Made by a program: the position numbers and the translations under genes
Shown here: in pieces, positions 27,608 through 34,628 of the stretch
How the letters are laid out: each line of letters opens with the position of its first letter
Position numbering within the stretch: the first letter of the stretch is position 1
The notes under the pieces: generated by a model
What the model saw: only the letters and a program-made list of their open reading frames with translations
Told to the model about the DNA's origin: nothing
Databases searched by the model: none
NCBI GenBank assembly: GCA_025456175.1
Contig: JALOLC010000002.1
Location: forward strand, 1 to 37,530
Length of the DNA: 37,530 nt
Direction of reading: 5' to 3'
Origin: Acidobacteriota bacterium
GTDB lineage: Bacteria; Acidobacteriota; Aminicenantia; UBA2199

Positions 27608-28762
27608 TTACGACCCGGTCCAGCTCTGCACCAGCAGGCGCTGGTACAATTCCTGCTGGCGCGCCACCAGCACCTCGGCCGACCACTCGCTGAAATCCTC
27701 ATTGCCGCACTCCCCGAGCCGCCGGCACAGCGCGGGTTCCGCCGCCAGTTTCAAGATGGCCGCGGCGAACCGCCCGTGGTCGGCGACCGGGACCAGGAAG
27801 CCGTTTTCACCGTCGCGGACCACTTCGCGGTTGCCGGGAATGTCGCTGGCCACCAGCGCCCTCTTTTTCAGGCGCAGCTGCACCAGGCTTTGCGGCAGCC
27901 CCTCCCAGAGAGCGGTCGAGACGCCGATATCGAAGCATTCCATGGCGTTCTCCACGTCGCGGATGAAGCCGGGCAGGCGAAACGCCCCGGAGATGCCGCG
28001 CCTTTCCAGCTCGGCCTCCAGCTCCCGGCGCAGCTCCCCGTCGCCGGCAATGAAAAAAATAACCGTTGGATTGCGCTCGAGCACGAGAGCCGCGATGGCA
28101 GCCAGGTGAAAAAGCCCCTTCTGCTGCTTGAAAGGGGCGATGACGCCGCAGACAAAAGAGCCTTCGGGCAGATCAAACCTGGCCCTCTGGACGGTGTTGT
28201 CCCCGCTGCGAACGGCGAATTTTTCCAGGGGGAAACCGCTGCGGATAAGGGAGAAATTGTCGCGGACCAGCCGCTGCCGGCGGGCCATGTCGATGTCGCT
28301 GCGGGCGACGAAGATGAAATGGCTTGTCAGCCGCCGGCAGGCTTTTTCGGCGAGCATATAGAACTGACGCTTGAAAAACGGCTGCCAGGAAGAGAAGGAA
28401 AAACCGTGCACCGAGTGGATGACAACCGGAACTCCGGCCAAGCGGGCGGCGACACGGCCGAGGATCCCCGCTTTGGACGAGTGGGTGTGGACGATTTGCG
28501 GTTGGATGCGCTTGAGCAGGCGAACCAGCTGGAACAGCGCCTGGAGGTCGCGCCAGGGCCGAATCGTGCGCTCCAGGGCGGGAACGACGACCAGGCGGTC
28601 CTCCTGGCTGAGGCGGCTGGCCAACATGCCGTCGGGCCCGCAGAGAAGGTAGGCGTCAAAGCGGGCGGCATCCAGATGCTCGACGGTGTACAGCGTGTTG
28701 AGCTGGGCCCCGCCCAGCTCCAGCTTGGTGATCACGTGAACGACGACGATCGGGCGGCTCAT
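27608..28762 (-). CDS. Glycosyltransferase family 4
   Basis: The 384-residue protein has the GT-B layout: an N-terminal acceptor domain with VITKLELGGAQ and IVHTHSSKAGILGR, and a C-terminal nucleotide-sugar domain. The latter has GVIAPFKQQKGL, FFIAGDGELR, LPGFIRDVENA, and the GLPQSLVQ and SDIPGNREVV stretches. It should add a sugar from a nucleotide donor to a lipid-linked or envelope glycan at the cytoplasmic face. Last gene of the operon that starts at 33124; its start overlaps the oxidoreductase stop (ATGA). Confidence 0.9.
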   Translation of the reverse strand: MSRPIVVVHVITKLELGGAQLNTLYTVEHLDAARFDAYLLCGPDGMLASRLSQEDRLVVVPALERTIRPWRDLQALFQLVRLLKRIQPQIVHTHSSKAGILGRVAARLAGVPVVIHSVHGFSFSSWQPFFKRQFYMLAEKACRRLTSHFIFVARSDIDMARRQRLVRDNFSLIRSGFPLEKFAVRSGDNTVQRARFDLPEGSFVCGVIAPFKQQKGLFHLAAIAALVLERNPTVIFFIAGDGELRRELEAELERRGISGAFRLPGFIRDVENAMECFDIGVSTALWEGLPQSLVQLRLKKRALVASDIPGNREVVRDGENGFLVPVADHGRFAAAILKLAAEPALCRRLGECGNEDFSEWSAEVLVARQQELYQRLLVQSWTGS

Positions 28763-29988
28763 GTCCGGTTGATCCGGCCCGCCGTCTCCCGGGCCATGAG
28801 GATGTCGTCGGCCATGGAGCTATAGTCCCAGCTGCCGTAGCGGCCGATGGAATGGATCCGCTGCCGGCGCAGCAGGGCCAGGACCTTGGGGACCAGCCGC
28901 GGCCAATTGCGGTCGAACACCACATAGGAGACGGGAATCCGTTTCAGGTCGTGGAACAGGATCTCGCTCGGACGGGCGATCATCCCTGTCCGGCGCAGGG
29001 TGTAGGCGACCTCCCGGAACAACTGCGACGCATCGAGAGCGGCAGAACCGGCAACGGTCTTTTCCAGGTAAACCGTGACCGCGCCCGCTGCCGGATAATA
29101 ACCGACGCGGTAGAAGGGGAAGCTCTTCTCGGGCAGATAGAGCCAGTGGAAGCGGCGGCGGCGGCGCGCCAGTACGGCGTTGACCACCAGCGTGGACAGG
29201 TGCAGCAGCTGCTGCCGGGGAAAAGGCGGCGGCGGCGAAATGATCCCCAGGAGCTCCTTCAACGGCATGGTGCTGACCAGATTTTCGTAGCGGTACGCGC
29301 CGGAATTCGTGAAGACTCTCTGTTTTTGCGGCTCGATACCGATGACCTTTTCGTGAAAGCGGATCCGGTCCAGCACGGGCAGGCTGTAGCTTTCGATGAA
29401 CCCCTGGAGCGAGAGGGCGGGATAGTAAAAAACCGGATTGTAGCCCTCGGCAAAGCGCCGCCGCTGCCGTGAGCCGGCCAGCACCTCCTCCAGCCTGGGA
29501 ACGGGGATGCTTCCCTTGTCCATTCCGGGGAGCAGTTGCCCCAGCGGGCGGCCGTAGAATTTTTGCAGGAAGGGAAAGAAAAACAGGCGGTAGAAGCGCT
29601 TCCCGAAGCTGGCCAGCAGGAATTCCTCCAGATTGTCCCCGCCAGCTCCACTGGCGGCGATCATCTCGGCGAGGATGGGACCGCGCAGCGAAGCCGGGAG
29701 ATGGGCCAGGTGGTACTGCAGGGAATAGGGAATGAAGCGCCCGCGAAGAAAAACCTTGCTGTCGCGCCGGAATTCCCGAAAGCGCTGGAACCTCTCCACG
29801 TGCTCCCTGATCCCGGGTTTGCCCTGGAAATGGAAATAATGGCCGCCATGATCGAAGATGAAGCCGCCGGCACGGTACTGCCCCGCCAGGCCGCCGGGCG
29901 TAGCGGCCTTTTCCAGGATGACGAACTCCCCTTCCAGAACCTGGCCGGCGCTCAAGCCCGAGATGCCGGCGCCGATGACGATGTTCAT
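28759..29988 (-). CDS. FAD-dependent oxidoreductase, amine oxidase/UDP-galactopyranose-mutase-like
   Basis: The 409-residue protein begins with the dinucleotide-binding motif GAGISGLSAG and FVILEKAATPGGL. DHGGHYFHF follows at about residues 55-63, in the place of the GAHLFHT motif of UDP-galactopyranose mutases and related protoporphyrinogen-oxidase-like proteins. Proteins of this kind occur in polysaccharide gene clusters, where they may rearrange or oxidise a sugar nucleotide; the reaction here is unknown. The start at 29988 overlaps the previous stop in ATGA; the longer open frame runs through the preceding gene and is not credible. Confidence 0.8.
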   Translation of the reverse strand: MNIVIGAGISGLSAGQVLEGEFVILEKAATPGGLAGQYRAGGFIFDHGGHYFHFQGKPGIREHVERFQRFREFRRDSKVFLRGRFIPYSLQYHLAHLPASLRGPILAEMIAASGAGGDNLEEFLLASFGKRFYRLFFFPFLQKFYGRPLGQLLPGMDKGSIPVPRLEEVLAGSRQRRRFAEGYNPVFYYPALSLQGFIESYSLPVLDRIRFHEKVIGIEPQKQRVFTNSGAYRYENLVSTMPLKELLGIISPPPPFPRQQLLHLSTLVVNAVLARRRRRFHWLYLPEKSFPFYRVGYYPAAGAVTVYLEKTVAGSAALDASQLFREVAYTLRRTGMIARPSEILFHDLKRIPVSYVVFDRNWPRLVPKVLALLRRQRIHSIGRYGSWDYSSMADDILMARETAGRINRT

Positions 29989-30986
29989 TCCATCTTCACC
30001 TGCGCCAGGACGGCGCCCAGCCCGGCGAAGAAGCAGGCGATCAGGACGGTGCTGAGCACGGTGAAGCGCGGGCCGGAGAAGAAATTCGCCACCACCAGGG
30101 CCGAAAGGCAGAGTTGAGCGAACAGGATGGCGGTAACGGTCTTCTGGGCGGACCACTGGCATTTCTTGCGCAAGCGCAGGGCGAAATGGTCGGGGCTCCC
30201 CAGGAAAGGGGTTTTGCCTTTCAACAGACGCAGGATGATCACGTAAGCCAGGTCAAATAGCGGAATGCCCAGCACGAACAATCCCGACAGGAAGGCCAGG
30301 CGGTTGAAGCGGGTATAGCGCACCATCATGGCCAGCGAGCCGATCAGCAGCCCCAGGACCATGCTCCCGGCATCGCCGAGGTAGATCCGGGCCGGCTCCC
30401 AATTGAAGCTGAGGAAAGCCAGCAATGCGCCCGCCAGGCTGATCGCCAGGATGGAGATCAGGAAGTCGCCGCTGTAGAGCGAGACGACGAAAATGGTCAG
30501 GGCGCTCAGGGCCCCCACCGAGGCGGCCAGGCCGTCCATGATGTCGATGATGTTGAACGCGTTGATCACGGTGAGGATCCAGAAGAAAGAGAGGATGAGA
30601 TCCAGCCACAGGGGGAGGAATACCAGGTCGATGACGATGCCGCTCTTGAGCAGGATGTAGGTGGCCACCACCTGAAAAAGGAACTTGATCCCCGGCGTGA
30701 GCGCCTTCAAGTCGTCGAACAGCCCGACCAGCAGCAGGATGGAGCTAGCGAAAAGGATGCCCAGCAGCTGCTGGTTGAACTGAAAGACCAGGCTGATCGG
30801 TGAAATGAAGGCGAAATAGACGATCACGCCGCCCATGTACGGCACGGGCCGGGAGTGCTGCTTCAGCTTGCCGTCGGGCTGGTCCAGGATCTGGTAGCGA
30901 AACGCGACTTTCTGCGCCAGCGGCGTGCCGTACAGCGCCAGCAAAAAAGCGAGGACGAACGAGAAAGCGAGGAGGATTTCATTCAC
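29985..30986 (-). CDS. WecA/MraY-type polyprenyl-phosphate sugar-1-phosphate transferase
   Basis: The 333-residue protein has about ten hydrophobic helices and the family's cytoplasmic motifs: GLFDDLKALTPG (Asp-Asp), NAFNIIDIMDGLA, IYLGDAGS, and a His-containing loop SPDHFALRLRK. It transfers a sugar-1-phosphate from a UDP-sugar to undecaprenyl phosphate and so starts a lipid-linked glycan. The operon context (two glycosyltransferases) and the absence of cell-wall genes speak for WecA/WbpL-like rather than MraY. It overlaps GT2 upstream by 8 nt and the FAD protein downstream by 4 nt. Confidence 0.9.
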   Translation of the reverse strand: MNEILLAFSFVLAFLLALYGTPLAQKVAFRYQILDQPDGKLKQHSRPVPYMGGVIVYFAFISPISLVFQFNQQLLGILFASSILLLVGLFDDLKALTPGIKFLFQVVATYILLKSGIVIDLVFLPLWLDLILSFFWILTVINAFNIIDIMDGLAASVGALSALTIFVVSLYSGDFLISILAISLAGALLAFLSFNWEPARIYLGDAGSMVLGLLIGSLAMMVRYTRFNRLAFLSGLFVLGIPLFDLAYVIILRLLKGKTPFLGSPDHFALRLRKKCQWSAQKTVTAILFAQLCLSALVVANFFSGPRFTVLSTVLIACFFAGLGAVLAQVKME

Positions 30987-31908
30987 GGTCTCGGATCCAC
31001 CTCCTTTTCTGCCATGCCCGTCTGAAGGCGGCGCGGGAGCGGATCACGGCGATTATAATTTTGGGAGAGCGGATTGTCAATGCTCCAACCCACAGCAGAT
31101 CCTTGGCCAGGATAAAGGGCAGCGCCGCTCCGTCGCGGCGGAAGCGAAAATTCTTGACCAGGGTCAGGTAGCGGTTCTTCAGCAGGTGGAAGCGCAACGG
31201 GGCGGGCCGCGCCAGGGCCAGGGAGAAGCGCCGCCAGCGGCTGGGCGCGAGCGTGGCGCTGCGGAAATGGTAGGCGACGACCCCCGGCGCAAAAAACGCC
31301 TTCAAGCCCAGGAGGCGGGCGCGCCAGCCGATATCGAAGTCCTCCCAGAACAGGAAGAAGTCGTTGTCATAGTATTCCCCTTCCATGCGCAGCGCGTCCA
31401 GGGCGCGTCTGGAAAAAACAGTCGCCGCCCCGCAAACGGAGAACACTTCTCTCTCCACCAGGACCACCCGCGCCAAGGGGCGCCCGTAGCCCGCCTCGCG
31501 GGGGTACCGTGCCAGCGAACGCTCCTGCCCGGCCGAATCGATGGTTGTGCGGTCGAAGCGCAGGATGAGCGGCGAGAGGAGGCCGGCCTGCGGGTGAGCG
31601 GCGAAGAACTCCAGGGAGCGGCGGTTGAACTCGGGATCCAGAAAGATGTCGGCGTTGGCCACCAGCACCAGGTCGGACGCGGTGCGTTCGATGCCGCGGT
31701 TGGCGGCGGCGGCGTAGCCGATGTTCTCCGGCAGAAGAATTTTTTCCAGCAGCGGGAACGCCTGCAGCACGGCGCGCGATCGGTCCTGCGAGGCGTTGTC
31801 CACGACGACCACCCGCTGGAAGGGAACGGACTGGTCGAAAAGGGAACGGAGGTTCCGCTCCAGGAAATTCTCGGAATTGTAGCTGACGACTACCGCGCTG
31901 ATTTCCAC
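30979..31908 (-). CDS. Glycosyltransferase family 2 (rhamnosyltransferase-like)
   Basis: The 309-residue protein has a GT-A fold with VVVSYNSENFLERNLRSL, VVVDNASQD, NIGYAAAANRG and the metal motif in VANADIF. Further on, the FFLFWEDFDIGWRARLLG block is typical of WbbL-type rhamnosyl- and related transferases. It is expected to act in the cytoplasm or at the membrane on a lipid-linked acceptor. The start follows an AGGGTGG site 34 nt after the end of the SPT-like gene. Confidence 0.9.
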   Translation of the reverse strand: MEISAVVVSYNSENFLERNLRSLFDQSVPFQRVVVVDNASQDRSRAVLQAFPLLEKILLPENIGYAAAANRGIERTASDLVLVANADIFLDPEFNRRSLEFFAAHPQAGLLSPLILRFDRTTIDSAGQERSLARYPREAGYGRPLARVVLVEREVFSVCGAATVFSRRALDALRMEGEYYDNDFFLFWEDFDIGWRARLLGLKAFFAPGVVAYHFRSATLAPSRWRRFSLALARPAPLRFHLLKNRYLTLVKNFRFRRDGAALPFILAKDLLWVGALTIRSPKIIIAVIRSRAAFRRAWQKRRWIRDRE

Positions 31909-31942
31909 CCTGCCGCCCGACGCCGCGGTCAGCCGCCCTGGC

Positions 31943-33124
31943 TCAGATCAGCCCCAGCTGCTTGCCGCCCTGCTTGAATCCTTCGAGGATGAAGTCCAGG
32001 TCCTTGTCCGTGTGGGTGGCCGTGAACGAAGTGCGGATCAAGGAGTCCTCGGGCGGAACGGCCGGAGCGATCACCGGGTTGGTGAACACGCCGTAATCGC
32101 GCAGGAACTTCCAGAGCATGAAGGTCTTCTCCACGTCGTGGATGAACACCGGGATAATGGGGGTCTCGGTGTTGCCGGTATGGTAGCCCATGCGGGTCAG
32201 TTCCTTGTTCATGATGCGGGTGATCTCCCACAGCCGCTTGCGCCGCTCGGGCTCATTCTGGATGATCTCCAGCGCCTGATACGCGGCGCCCAGGGCGGCG
32301 GGGGTGATGGAGGCGGAAAAGATCAGCGCCCGGGCGTGGTGCTTGATGTACTGGACGATCGTGCGGTCGCCGCAGACGAATCCGCCCAGGGAAGCGAACG
32401 ACTTGGAGAACGTCGTCATGATCAGGTCGACATCGTCGAGCAGGCCGAAGTGCTCGGCCGTCCCCCGCCCCTTCGCCCCCATGACGCCGACGCCGTGGGC
32501 GTCGTCGACCATGAGCCGTGCATGGTATTTTTTGGCCAGCTTGACGATCTGCGGCAGATTGGACAGGTCGCCCTCCATGCTGAAGACGCCGTCGACAATG
32601 ATCAATTTGCCCTTTTCCGCGGGCTGGTGGGCCAGCTTATCCTCCAGGTCCTTCATGTCGTTGTGCTTGAACTTGGCGATATGGGCATAGGAAAGGCGCA
32701 CCGCGTCCATGATCGAGGCGTGGACCATGCGGTCGAGGACGATCACGTCGTCGCGGCCGGCCAGGGCCGAGATGGTCCCCAGGTTGGCCTGCATGCCCGT
32801 CGAGAAGGTCAGGGCCTCCTCCTTGCCCATGAAATGGGCGAGCTTCTTTTCCAGCTCGACATGCAGCGAATAGGTCCCGTTGAGGAAACGGGAGCCGCAG
32901 GTGGACGTGCCGTATTTCTCGATGGCGGCGCTGGCCGCGGCCTTGATCCGCTTGTCGTCAAAGAGCCCGAGGTAGTTGTTGGAGCCGACCATGAGGATCT
33001 TCTTGCCGTTGACCCACACATAATTGCCCTCCACCTTCTCGATCTCGGTAAAATAGGGATAAAGGTCGAGTTTCTTCATGTCCTCAACCCGGGTAAATTC
33101 AAAACACTTCTTGAAAACGTCCAT
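31943..33124 (-). CDS. Alpha-oxoamine synthase, serine-palmitoyltransferase-like
   Basis: The 393-residue protein has the fold-type I PLP motifs: GSNNYLGL, YGTSTCGSRFLNGT, the ring-stacking His135 (VHAS), VDGVFSMEGD, VDDAHGVG, and the PLP Lys241 in TTFSKSFASLGGF. The family joins acyl-CoA to an amino acid with loss of CO2. From memory, blocks such as LYPYF, KFKHND, GRGTAEHFGL, TPIIPVFI and GVFTNPVIAPAVPP match Bacteroides serine palmitoyltransferase more closely than glycine C-acetyltransferase or BioF. So 3-ketosphinganine formation is the favoured reaction, with Kbl as the alternative. ATG at 33124 behind GAGAGG. First gene of a five-gene operon. Confidence 0.8.
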   Translation of the reverse strand: MDVFKKCFEFTRVEDMKKLDLYPYFTEIEKVEGNYVWVNGKKILMVGSNNYLGLFDDKRIKAAASAAIEKYGTSTCGSRFLNGTYSLHVELEKKLAHFMGKEEALTFSTGMQANLGTISALAGRDDVIVLDRMVHASIMDAVRLSYAHIAKFKHNDMKDLEDKLAHQPAEKGKLIIVDGVFSMEGDLSNLPQIVKLAKKYHARLMVDDAHGVGVMGAKGRGTAEHFGLLDDVDLIMTTFSKSFASLGGFVCGDRTIVQYIKHHARALIFSASITPAALGAAYQALEIIQNEPERRKRLWEITRIMNKELTRMGYHTGNTETPIIPVFIHDVEKTFMLWKFLRDYGVFTNPVIAPAVPPEDSLIRTSFTATHTDKDLDFILEGFKQGGKQLGLI

Positions 33125-33136
33125 GCTCACCTCTCG

Positions 33137-33166
33137 TTTGCATAACGCAAATGGATTCTATAAAAT
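33137..33166 (+). promoter_or_regulatory. SDR promoter, leaderless type, with palindrome over the -35
   Basis: TTGCAT (33138-33143), 17-nt spacer, TAAAAT (33161-33166), then 6 nt to the ATG at 33173. The inverted repeat TTTGC-ATAAC-GCAAA (33137-33151) covers the -35 and lies between the two divergent genes, so one regulator could control both. No clear -10/-35 pair was found for the minus-strand gene. Confidence 0.6.
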
Positions 33167-33172
33167 GGCTTC

Positions 33173-34144
33173 ATGAATATTCTGGTGACCGGTGGCACGG
33201 GATTCGTCGGCCGCCACCTGATCGCGGCGCTGGAGGAAGGAGGCGGCAACCGCTTGCACGCCCTGGTCCGGGACAGCCACAGGTTCGCAGCCAGCTCGTT
33301 CTCGGCCGCCGTCGCGCCGCTGCGCGGAGACCTGTTCACCAGCGAACCATTCCCCGAGGACATCGACACGGTGTTCCATTTGGCCGCGGTAACCAAGGCG
33401 GCCACACCCGGCGAGTTCCGGCGGGTGAACGTCGAAGGTACCCGCGCGCTGCTGGAAAAGCTGAAGCCCTTGAAAAAGCTGCAGCGGGTCGTGCTGCTGT
33501 CATCGCTGGCCGCGGCCGGCCCCACTCGCGGCAATGACCCGTTGCGCGAGGACATGACCGCCGCGCCGATCTCCCTGTACGGCCGCAGCAAACTGGCCCA
33601 GGAAGAAATGGTAGCGACGCATTGTCCGGCTCCGTATGTCATCCTGCGCGCCCCGATCGTTTTCGGCCCCGGCGACATGGACATGCTCGACGCGTTCCGC
33701 TTCGCGGCCAGGGGCATCATGCCGCTCCTGGGCAGGAGGGCGCGCCGGTACTCGCTGATATATGTCAAGGACCTAGCGCGCGCCATGGTCGCCGTTGCCT
33801 TCGGCCCATGTCGGAACGAGATTTTTTATGCCGCCAATCCGGACGCGGTCGAATGGCGCGAACTCCTGGAACAGGCGGCCCGCCTGCTGGGCAGGGGAAA
33901 AACACGGAAGATCGTGATCCCCGAGGCGCTGGGCCGCATTCTGGCCGAATTTTCCGAGCAGCGCATGCGCATCCTGGGGAAAAAGGCGATCTTCAACCGC
34001 GACAAGTTCAGCGAGATGAAACACCCCGTCTGGGTATGCTCGGCCGCCAAGATTGAGGCCATGCTGCATTTTCAACCCCGCTTCCCTTTGTTGGCGGCCC
34101 TGCAGGAGACGATCGGCTGGTATCGCGAGCAGGGGTTTCTATGA
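33173..34144 (+). CDS. Extended short-chain dehydrogenase/reductase (NAD-dependent epimerase/reductase family)
   Basis: The 323-residue protein has the NAD(P)-binding motif TGGTGFVG (residues 6-13), a putative catalytic Ser at 110/111 (VVLLSSLAAAG), and Tyr136-x3-Lys140 in LYGRSK. VILRAPIVFGPGD and IYVKDLARAM follow, typical of extended SDRs. The substrate is not readable. Its divergent position 48 nt from the SPT-like gene suggests the 3-oxo-lipid reductase role known for CerR of bacterial ceramide synthesis; this is inference. No Shine-Dalgarno; probably leaderless. Confidence 0.88.
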   Translation: MNILVTGGTGFVGRHLIAALEEGGGNRLHALVRDSHRFAASSFSAAVAPLRGDLFTSEPFPEDIDTVFHLAAVTKAATPGEFRRVNVEGTRALLEKLKPLKKLQRVVLLSSLAAAGPTRGNDPLREDMTAAPISLYGRSKLAQEEMVATHCPAPYVILRAPIVFGPGDMDMLDAFRFAARGIMPLLGRRARRYSLIYVKDLARAMVAVAFGPCRNEIFYAANPDAVEWRELLEQAARLLGRGKTRKIVIPEALGRILAEFSEQRMRILGKKAIFNRDKFSEMKHPVWVCSAAKIEAMLHFQPRFPLLAALQETIGWYREQGFL

Positions 34145-34151
34145 GCAGGCT

Positions 34152-34628
34152 TCATTTTTTTTTGATCTTGTAATTGCGGCGGGAAACGAAATCTGCCGAG
34201 AATTTCTGAGTGGTCTTCACCGCCCAGGAATCGGGGAAGAGCATGGTAAAGACGATCTCGCCGCTGACGGTGAGGTTGCCCAACAAGGCTTCTTCGTTCA
34301 ATTTGAAGGGGACATCGATCTCCTTTTGCGGATCCAAGAACACGCCGTCGTTCTCTTGGGAGGTGGGGAGATTCAGCTCGGAGCCGGCAAAGAAGATCTT
34401 GGCGAAGGAAAAGTTGTCGTTCTCGTCCAAGCGGATCAGGAACTCAGGGTTGGCCGAGATCTTCACTCCGTTGCGGACAAGGATCTTTATCTTCAGCAGC
34501 CCCTCGCTTCCCTGCAGGACCTGGCGCGGGGACACGGAGCACTCGATCTTCAGGAAATCGTCCTGGGCCAGTCCGGGAACAAAGGACAGGGACAGGATCA
34601 TCATTAAAAAAAGGGTGAACTTGGTCAT
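34152..34628 (-). CDS. Secreted protein with DsbD-alpha-like immunoglobulin fold (tentative)
   Basis: The 158-residue protein has a signal peptide (MTKFTLFLMMILSLSFVPGLAQ). The mature domain is about 135 residues with beta-sandwich features (SVSPRQVLQGSEGLLKIKI, EIDVPFKLNEEALLGNLTVSGEIVF). The order resembles the N-terminal domain of DsbD-like thiol-disulfide proteins, but the catalytic cysteines are absent: the only Cys is in the IECSV stretch. It therefore may be a periplasmic structural or binding domain. It is read from its own promoter, convergent with the SDR gene 7 nt away. Confidence 0.7.
   Translation of the reverse strand: MTKFTLFLMMILSLSFVPGLAQDDFLKIECSVSPRQVLQGSEGLLKIKILVRNGVKISANPEFLIRLDENDNFSFAKIFFAGSELNLPTSQENDGVFLDPQKEIDVPFKLNEEALLGNLTVSGEIVFTMLFPDSWAVKTTQKFSADFVSRRNYKIKKK

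Follow-up and report, generated by a model that had tools for sequence, protein, structure and literature searches.

We analyzed a 37,530-nucleotide stretch of DNA (here called the window; contig JALOLC010000002.1, positions 1 to 37,530, assembly GCA_025456175.1) from an Acidobacteriota bacterium. The source is an Aminicenantes metagenome-assembled genome (MAG; labelled G000) that is 73.5% complete; its closest named relatives carry the label Candidatus Aminicenantes. The window encodes an alpha-oxoamine synthase that we classify as a serine palmitoyltransferase (SPT), followed on the minus strand by a GT2 glycosyltransferase, a WecA-type transferase, a flavin adenine dinucleotide (FAD) enzyme, and a GT4 glycosyltransferase, with a short-chain dehydrogenase/reductase (SDR) gene read in the opposite direction. 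The reading that we favor, at somewhat better than an even chance, is that of a ceramide-type pathway whose first gene came to lead a cluster for glycan assembly within a single Aminicenantes family. The gene arrangement is not due to chance: the order SPT-GT2-WecA-FAD-GT4 is present in the nine genera of the family, and the SPT-SDR pairing recurs in other Aminicenantes families and in other phyla.

To describe this linkage, we used a family set of 34 genomes from nine genera. The SPT and FAD genes were located on one contig and in cluster order in 25 genomes; in six the cluster was cut by a contig end (G002, G022, G025, G027, G030, and, judging from match positions, G032), and both genes were missing in three. 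Among the 34 family genomes, no separation of these two genes was found that a contig end did not explain. Because identity across the family falls to 73% for the SPT and to about 42% for the FAD enzyme, the linkage appears to be old. The GT2 gene lay beside the SPT in every family member in which both were visible, and variation was seen at the GT4: a restriction-type methylase gene intervenes at one locus (L040), and no GT4 follows in G029. Genes further out from the cluster were not retained in sister genera. The unusual coupling of SPT to glycan genes, which a preliminary description of this DNA had proposed, is real and family-wide.

The assignment of the synthase was based on phylogeny, active-site residues, and profile scores. 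In a maximum-likelihood tree, the synthase and all SPT references, including the crystallized ones, formed one clade of 30 rows (support 100/98), and Kbl of Escherichia coli together with the MAG's own Kbl (100/100), BioF, and the Thermus Kbl/BioF enzyme lay outside it. The best-matching solved structure was the SPT of Sphingobacterium multivorum (3a2b; 446 bits, residues 7-386 in GTG-start numbering), compared with 301 bits for the Thermus Kbl/BioF structure and 253 bits for the cysteate acyltransferase 28eh. The pyridoxal phosphate-binding Lys241, His135, Arg364, and the SPT-type Asn349 are kept (ATG numbering); this Asn is present in all SPTs compared and missing from Kbl and BioF, and the SPT-type TFSKS motif is also retained. 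Among NCBIfam models, NF047600 (Bacteroidota/CFB-type SPT) scored 551.9 bits, compared with 402 for TIGR01825 (BioF/Kbl family), 378 for PRK06939, and 297 for TIGR01822 (Kbl); as the curated cut-off of NF047600 is 640, the synthase was placed in the SPT clade only and not under that model. The synthase shares with the S. multivorum enzyme (3a2b/8guh; NF047600) identical catalytic Lys, His, Asp, and Arg residues, the SPT-type Asn, and the clade, but differs from it in the sub-threshold score, in heading a glycan cluster, and in forming its own Aminicenantes branch. Taken together, these data identify it as an SPT with predicted catalysis, in agreement with the SPT-like identity originally proposed. 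The case held against that proposal, namely, an enzyme grouping with glycine C-acetyltransferases and having a threonine dehydrogenase (Tdh) partner, does not apply, because the synthase groups with SPTs, a true Kbl is encoded by a separate gene (contig 99 of the MAG), and a Tdh gene is found in most congeners.

The divergent SDR had been described as CerR-like. It matched CerR (epi) of E. coli BL21 (ECD_RS14835), a strain that carries a ceramide gene set (PMC9386255), over its full length (27% identity in 318 columns, E = 4e-27); the two proteins have a C-terminal block in common, and the catalytic Tyr-x-x-x-Lys of the SDR is YGRSK (residues 136-140). In the SDR tree, it belonged to a starred clade (support 96) of 40 rows, composed of SPT-adjacent SDRs from many Aminicenantes families. 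The full-length match, the C-terminal block, and this clade bear out a CerR-type protein with putative reductase activity, and its grouping with E. coli CerR in a wider clade is weakly supported (87). Caulobacter CerR is periplasmic and associated with the inner membrane (PMC11087976); inspection of the SDR, by eye only, revealed no obvious signal peptide. The gap between the two start codons measures exactly 48 nucleotides (nt) and contains a near-palindrome, ATTCTATA(A/G)AAT, six bases upstream of the SDR ATG, which is conserved in 13 members of the genus. This element is likely a shared bidirectional -10 sequence for SPT and SDR, and its position suggests a leaderless SDR transcript. We also observed, in the family, two CerR-like SDRs encoded in tandem (G000:C43 [L196], G015:C14, G033:C130, and G017:C122); one member of this pair might serve in place of CerR where a sister genus has no SPT-adjacent SDR.

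SPT and the SDR had been put forward as two of the three known bacterial ceramide enzymes, and a genome search for the third, the ceramide synthase bCerS, had been suggested. Since no Pfam or NCBIfam model matched E. coli YghO/bCerS, a profile built from our own alignment (A1) was used. The profile matches mixed bCerS with a second YghO-like clade, and the two were separated by a tree. bCerS homologs were found in most congeners and were intact in G015, G001, G008, and G004; for the MAG itself, the search yielded only a homolog on another contig, truncated by the contig end (G000:C33:1-672). This fragment and its congeneric counterparts fell inside the bCerS clade (support 100), apart from the paralogous clade. 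Judged from sequence, the genus has homologs of each of the three Caulobacter pathway enzymes; the bCerS copy of the MAG itself is incomplete.

The bCerS gene is unlinked from SPT in the genus of the MAG. It lies directly beside SPT in Nitrospirota, Deltaproteobacteria, Poribacteria, Planctomycetota, Elusimicrobiota, and others, with the SDR mostly on the other side (SDR-SPT-bCerS in Nitrospirota, deltaproteobacterial, Planctomycetota, and Elusimicrobiota loci; SPT-bCerS in Poribacteria), and it adjoins the SDR in the Aminicenantes genomes G038 and G035. Like Caulobacter crescentus and E. coli B, whose ceramide genes are spt, cerR, bcerS/yghO, acpR, and aasR (PMC9386255, PMC11087976, PMC11324152), the genus has an SPT, a CerR-type SDR, and a YghO/bCerS homolog, but here bCerS is unlinked, the SDR is divergent from SPT, and glycan genes follow SPT in place of lpt/phosphosphingolipid genes. 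No relatives of acpR or aasR were found near Aminicenantes SPTs. A study of the Black Sea reported SPT-like genes in 38 phyla, with CerR and bCerS often not colocalized (PMC11334938), and the sphingolipid part of the locus is a further member of this already known kind. At three other loci (L208, G063:C7; L209, G040:C70; L216, G078:C95), a YghO-type acyltransferase paralog was observed beside a distant second alpha-oxoamine synthase, and two of these loci have an SDR as well; they may represent a parallel long-chain-base pathway.

The genes downstream of SPT had a clear Pfam assignment, as did SPT and the SDR, and the six genes were confirmed at the positions first reported by open reading frame (ORF) and Pfam checks (Table 1). 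The WecA-type enzyme scored 92 bits with the WecA model TIGR02380 (cut-off, 326) and was therefore assigned only to the PF00953 superfamily of polyprenyl-phosphate sugar-1-phosphate transferases; the GT4 reached 143 bits with TIGR03088, also below the cut-off. The FAD protein had been called a sugar-nucleotide-like enzyme. Its profile matched the UDP-galactopyranose mutase (UGM) of Aspergillus fumigatus (E = 1.7e-39), its predicted fold superimposed on UGM 4dsh with a TM score of 0.84, and it contains the GGH loop and the PFYR motif. In comparison with eukaryotic UGMs (A. fumigatus 3ute, 4dsg/4dsh), it is shorter, and of two catalytic arginines the equivalent of Arg327 is kept, but the Arg182 position is occupied by Phe, and in relatives mostly by Lys. 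We consequently call it UGM-like, a protein of predicted UGM fold and eukaryotic type whose mutase activity is putative and whose reaction is uncertain. Its length had been overcalled: the ORF of 467 amino acids (aa) is overextended, and the likely protein has about 410 aa and starts at ATG 29988.

Glycosyltransferases that act on long-chain-base lipids are known from Caulobacter (Sgt1/Sgt2; PMC6445935) and Bacteroides fragilis (BF9343_3149, a ceramide glycosyltransferase of GT4 type; PMC9692976). We liken the present genes to these by role; the known enzymes glycosylate ceramide directly, whereas this locus adds a WecA-type polyprenyl-phosphate enzyme and a UGM-like mutase. In the open-access literature searched, we found no description of such a sugar transferase and UGM-like mutase behind an SPT, and no paper on sphingolipids of Aminicenantes.

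SPT and GT2 are 34 nt apart, GT2 and WecA overlap by 8 nt, and WecA-FAD and FAD-GT4 each overlap by 4 nt (ATGA). The order and overlaps of the proposed glycan-assembly operon are thus real, but it is not just a single transcription unit. The 3' part of GT2 contains a TTGACA-N17-TATAAT element that matches the sigma-70 consensus at 12 of 12 positions and whose -10 hexamer stops 66 nt short of the wecA start. The match was 12/12 in 24 of the 27 family genomes counted and 11/12 in the other three, and within the genus codon identity at the element (0.94, compared with a GT2 mean of 0.71) was the highest of any stretch of the gene. Consensus and conservation indicate that this element is very probably a promoter.

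Table 1. Features of the sphingolipid-glycan locus (positions in the window)
Feature	Position	Strand	Remarks
SPT-type alpha-oxoamine synthase	31943..33124	-	393 aa from ATG 33124; alternative start in ORF list, GTG 33130
CerR-type extended SDR, putative 3-keto-lipid reductase	33173..34144	+	ATG 33173; divergent from SPT
GT2 glycosyltransferase	30979..31908	-	PF00535, E = 3.5e-21
WecA/MraY-type polyprenyl-phosphate sugar-1-phosphate transferase	29985..30986	-	PF00953, E = 5e-32
FAD enzyme, predicted UGM fold (eukaryotic-type UGM-like)	28759..29988	-	Profile and predicted fold
GT4 glycosyltransferase	27608..28762	-	PF13692/PF00534
Very probable internal promoter, TTGACA-N17-TATAAT, in 3' end of GT2, upstream of wecA	31052..31080	-	Consensus and conservation
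Near-palindrome in SPT/SDR gap	33155..33166	.	Conserved in genus; function inferred
Small, predicted secreted beta-sandwich protein (DsbD_N-like)	34152..34628	-	Class-wide neighbor of sphingolipid genes

In the pathway that we propose, SPT would condense a fatty acyl thioester with an amino acid (by homology, serine), yielding a 3-keto long-chain base whose keto group would be reduced by the CerR-type SDR, expressed from the shared gap; a bCerS-type N-acyltransferase encoded elsewhere would add the second chain. These three steps are well supported by homology. The resulting ceramide-type lipid may then be moved to the outer membrane, a step with weaker support from an export cassette next to close SPT relatives: genes for an MMPL transporter, a LolA-like protein, and a DUF1302-type outer-membrane protein lie directly upstream of SPT in the sister genus g9 (G023/L046:1191-7611) and in Pelobacter sp. 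UBA5610 (L036:5162-11185), whose SPT is about 90% identical to members of the MAG's genus. The GT2, encoded nearest to SPT, and perhaps the GT4 would place sugars on the long-chain-base lipid, and the WecA-type, UGM-like, and GT4 enzymes would assemble a glycan, linked to polyprenyl and possibly containing galactofuranose, that is destined either for the same envelope or for this lipid. A sugar-decorated sphingolipid of the cell surface is therefore hinted at by the gene order and is plausible, if unproven.

Several observations weigh against a common product. The promoter inside GT2 would allow wecA, the UGM-like gene, and GT4 to be transcribed apart from SPT and GT2, and WecA-type enzymes use polyprenyl phosphate, not ceramide. 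Most family members encode LpxC, which makes lipid A an alternative candidate acceptor for the glycan; on the same grounds, a lack of lipopolysaccharide in the genus is ruled out as an explanation. Two sister genera (g3 and g9) retain SPT together with the glycan genes; they have no ortholog of the SDR and no recognizable bCerS, their YghO-like proteins belonging only to the paralogous clade. Other Aminicenantes families have SPT and SDR without this glycan set. The bCerS of the MAG itself is, as stated, a truncated copy on another contig. Owing to genera g3 and g9, the presence of LpxC, and the internal promoter, we rate the coupling of the glycan genes to the sphingolipid, as opposed to an independent glycan unit, as little better than even.

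Four of these observations (the internal promoter, LpxC, genera g3 and g9, and the families that lack the glycan set) favor an arrangement of two independent envelope modules that are neighbors: a ceramide-type pathway, and a glycan unit linked to polyprenyl diphosphate (GT2, WecA-type, UGM-like, and GT4) that serves lipid A or protein, the two staying linked without a shared product. We give this a substantial probability that stays short of even, since it has to accommodate a linkage that is strict throughout the family despite the sequence divergence of SPT and the FAD enzyme, the short SPT-GT2 distance and the overlaps downstream, and the loss of the outer neighbor genes in sister genera. 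Compatible with either view of the glycan genes is that the synthase and SDR form a long-chain amine from alanine, glycine, or cysteate (a 1-deoxysphingolipid, sulfonolipid, or similar) in place of a normal ceramide. Spt is able to use alanine and 1-deoxysphingolipids are present in euxinic water (PMC11334938), the NF047600 cut-off was missed (552 of 640 bits), and this SPT has no bCerS beside it; the far closer match to S. multivorum SPT than to the cysteate acyltransferase and the retained SPT-type Asn and TFSKS motifs nevertheless make it unlikely. Less probable still is that the WecA-type, UGM-like, and glycosyltransferase proteins first build a galactofuranose-like glycan on polyprenyl diphosphate and that this glycan is then moved en bloc to the ceramide-type lipid, which would give a sphingolipid with an O-antigen-like chain and hence a new type of glycosphingolipid. 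Finally, a glycine C-acetyltransferase or BioF unconnected to lipids has a negligible probability in spite of the common fold family and the TIGR01825 score, because the tree and residues rule out such an identity, Kbl has its own clade, Tdh and Kbl are encoded separately in the genus, and the conserved partners are CerR and bCerS and not Tdh or bio genes.

The gene at 34152-34628, beside the SDR, counts as part of the SPT/SDR neighborhood. Homologs of its product were found beside SDR/SPT or bCerS in many Aminicenantes families (also at L158, L154, and L197), and this protein, predicted to be secreted, tracks with sphingolipid genes as a class-wide companion. Two of 25 members gave a weak DsbD_N match (E = 0.007); a structure model (pLDDT 84) retrieved only generic beta-sandwich matches in a structure search. 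Further observations concern SPT copies elsewhere. Pelobacter sp. UBA5610 (L036 and L052) has two SPT genes that are 84 to 90% identical to those of the Aminicenantes genus and lack the glycan cluster, reflecting either recent transfer or a mislabelled MAG, and a related LolA-like/outer-membrane pair was seen beside a second SPT-like gene in G016 (L206). In the Aminicenantes family f4, no LpxC match was found in six well-complete genomes (G036, G053, G055, G056, G058, and G059). Several of these have an SPT of the type found in the window, whereas the sole SPT-like copy of G059 is more distant; in this family, sphingolipids may take the place of lipid A.

Bacterial sphingolipid genes are widespread, and the head groups of sphingolipids in uncultured phyla are a gap in knowledge. 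The family-wide block of SPT and glycan genes points to candidates for glycosphingolipid formation in Aminicenantes. The class-wide secreted companion and the MMPL/LolA-like cassette beside SPT extend this picture. In families with ceramide genes but no LpxC match, sphingolipids might stand in for lipopolysaccharide, as they do in Sphingomonas.

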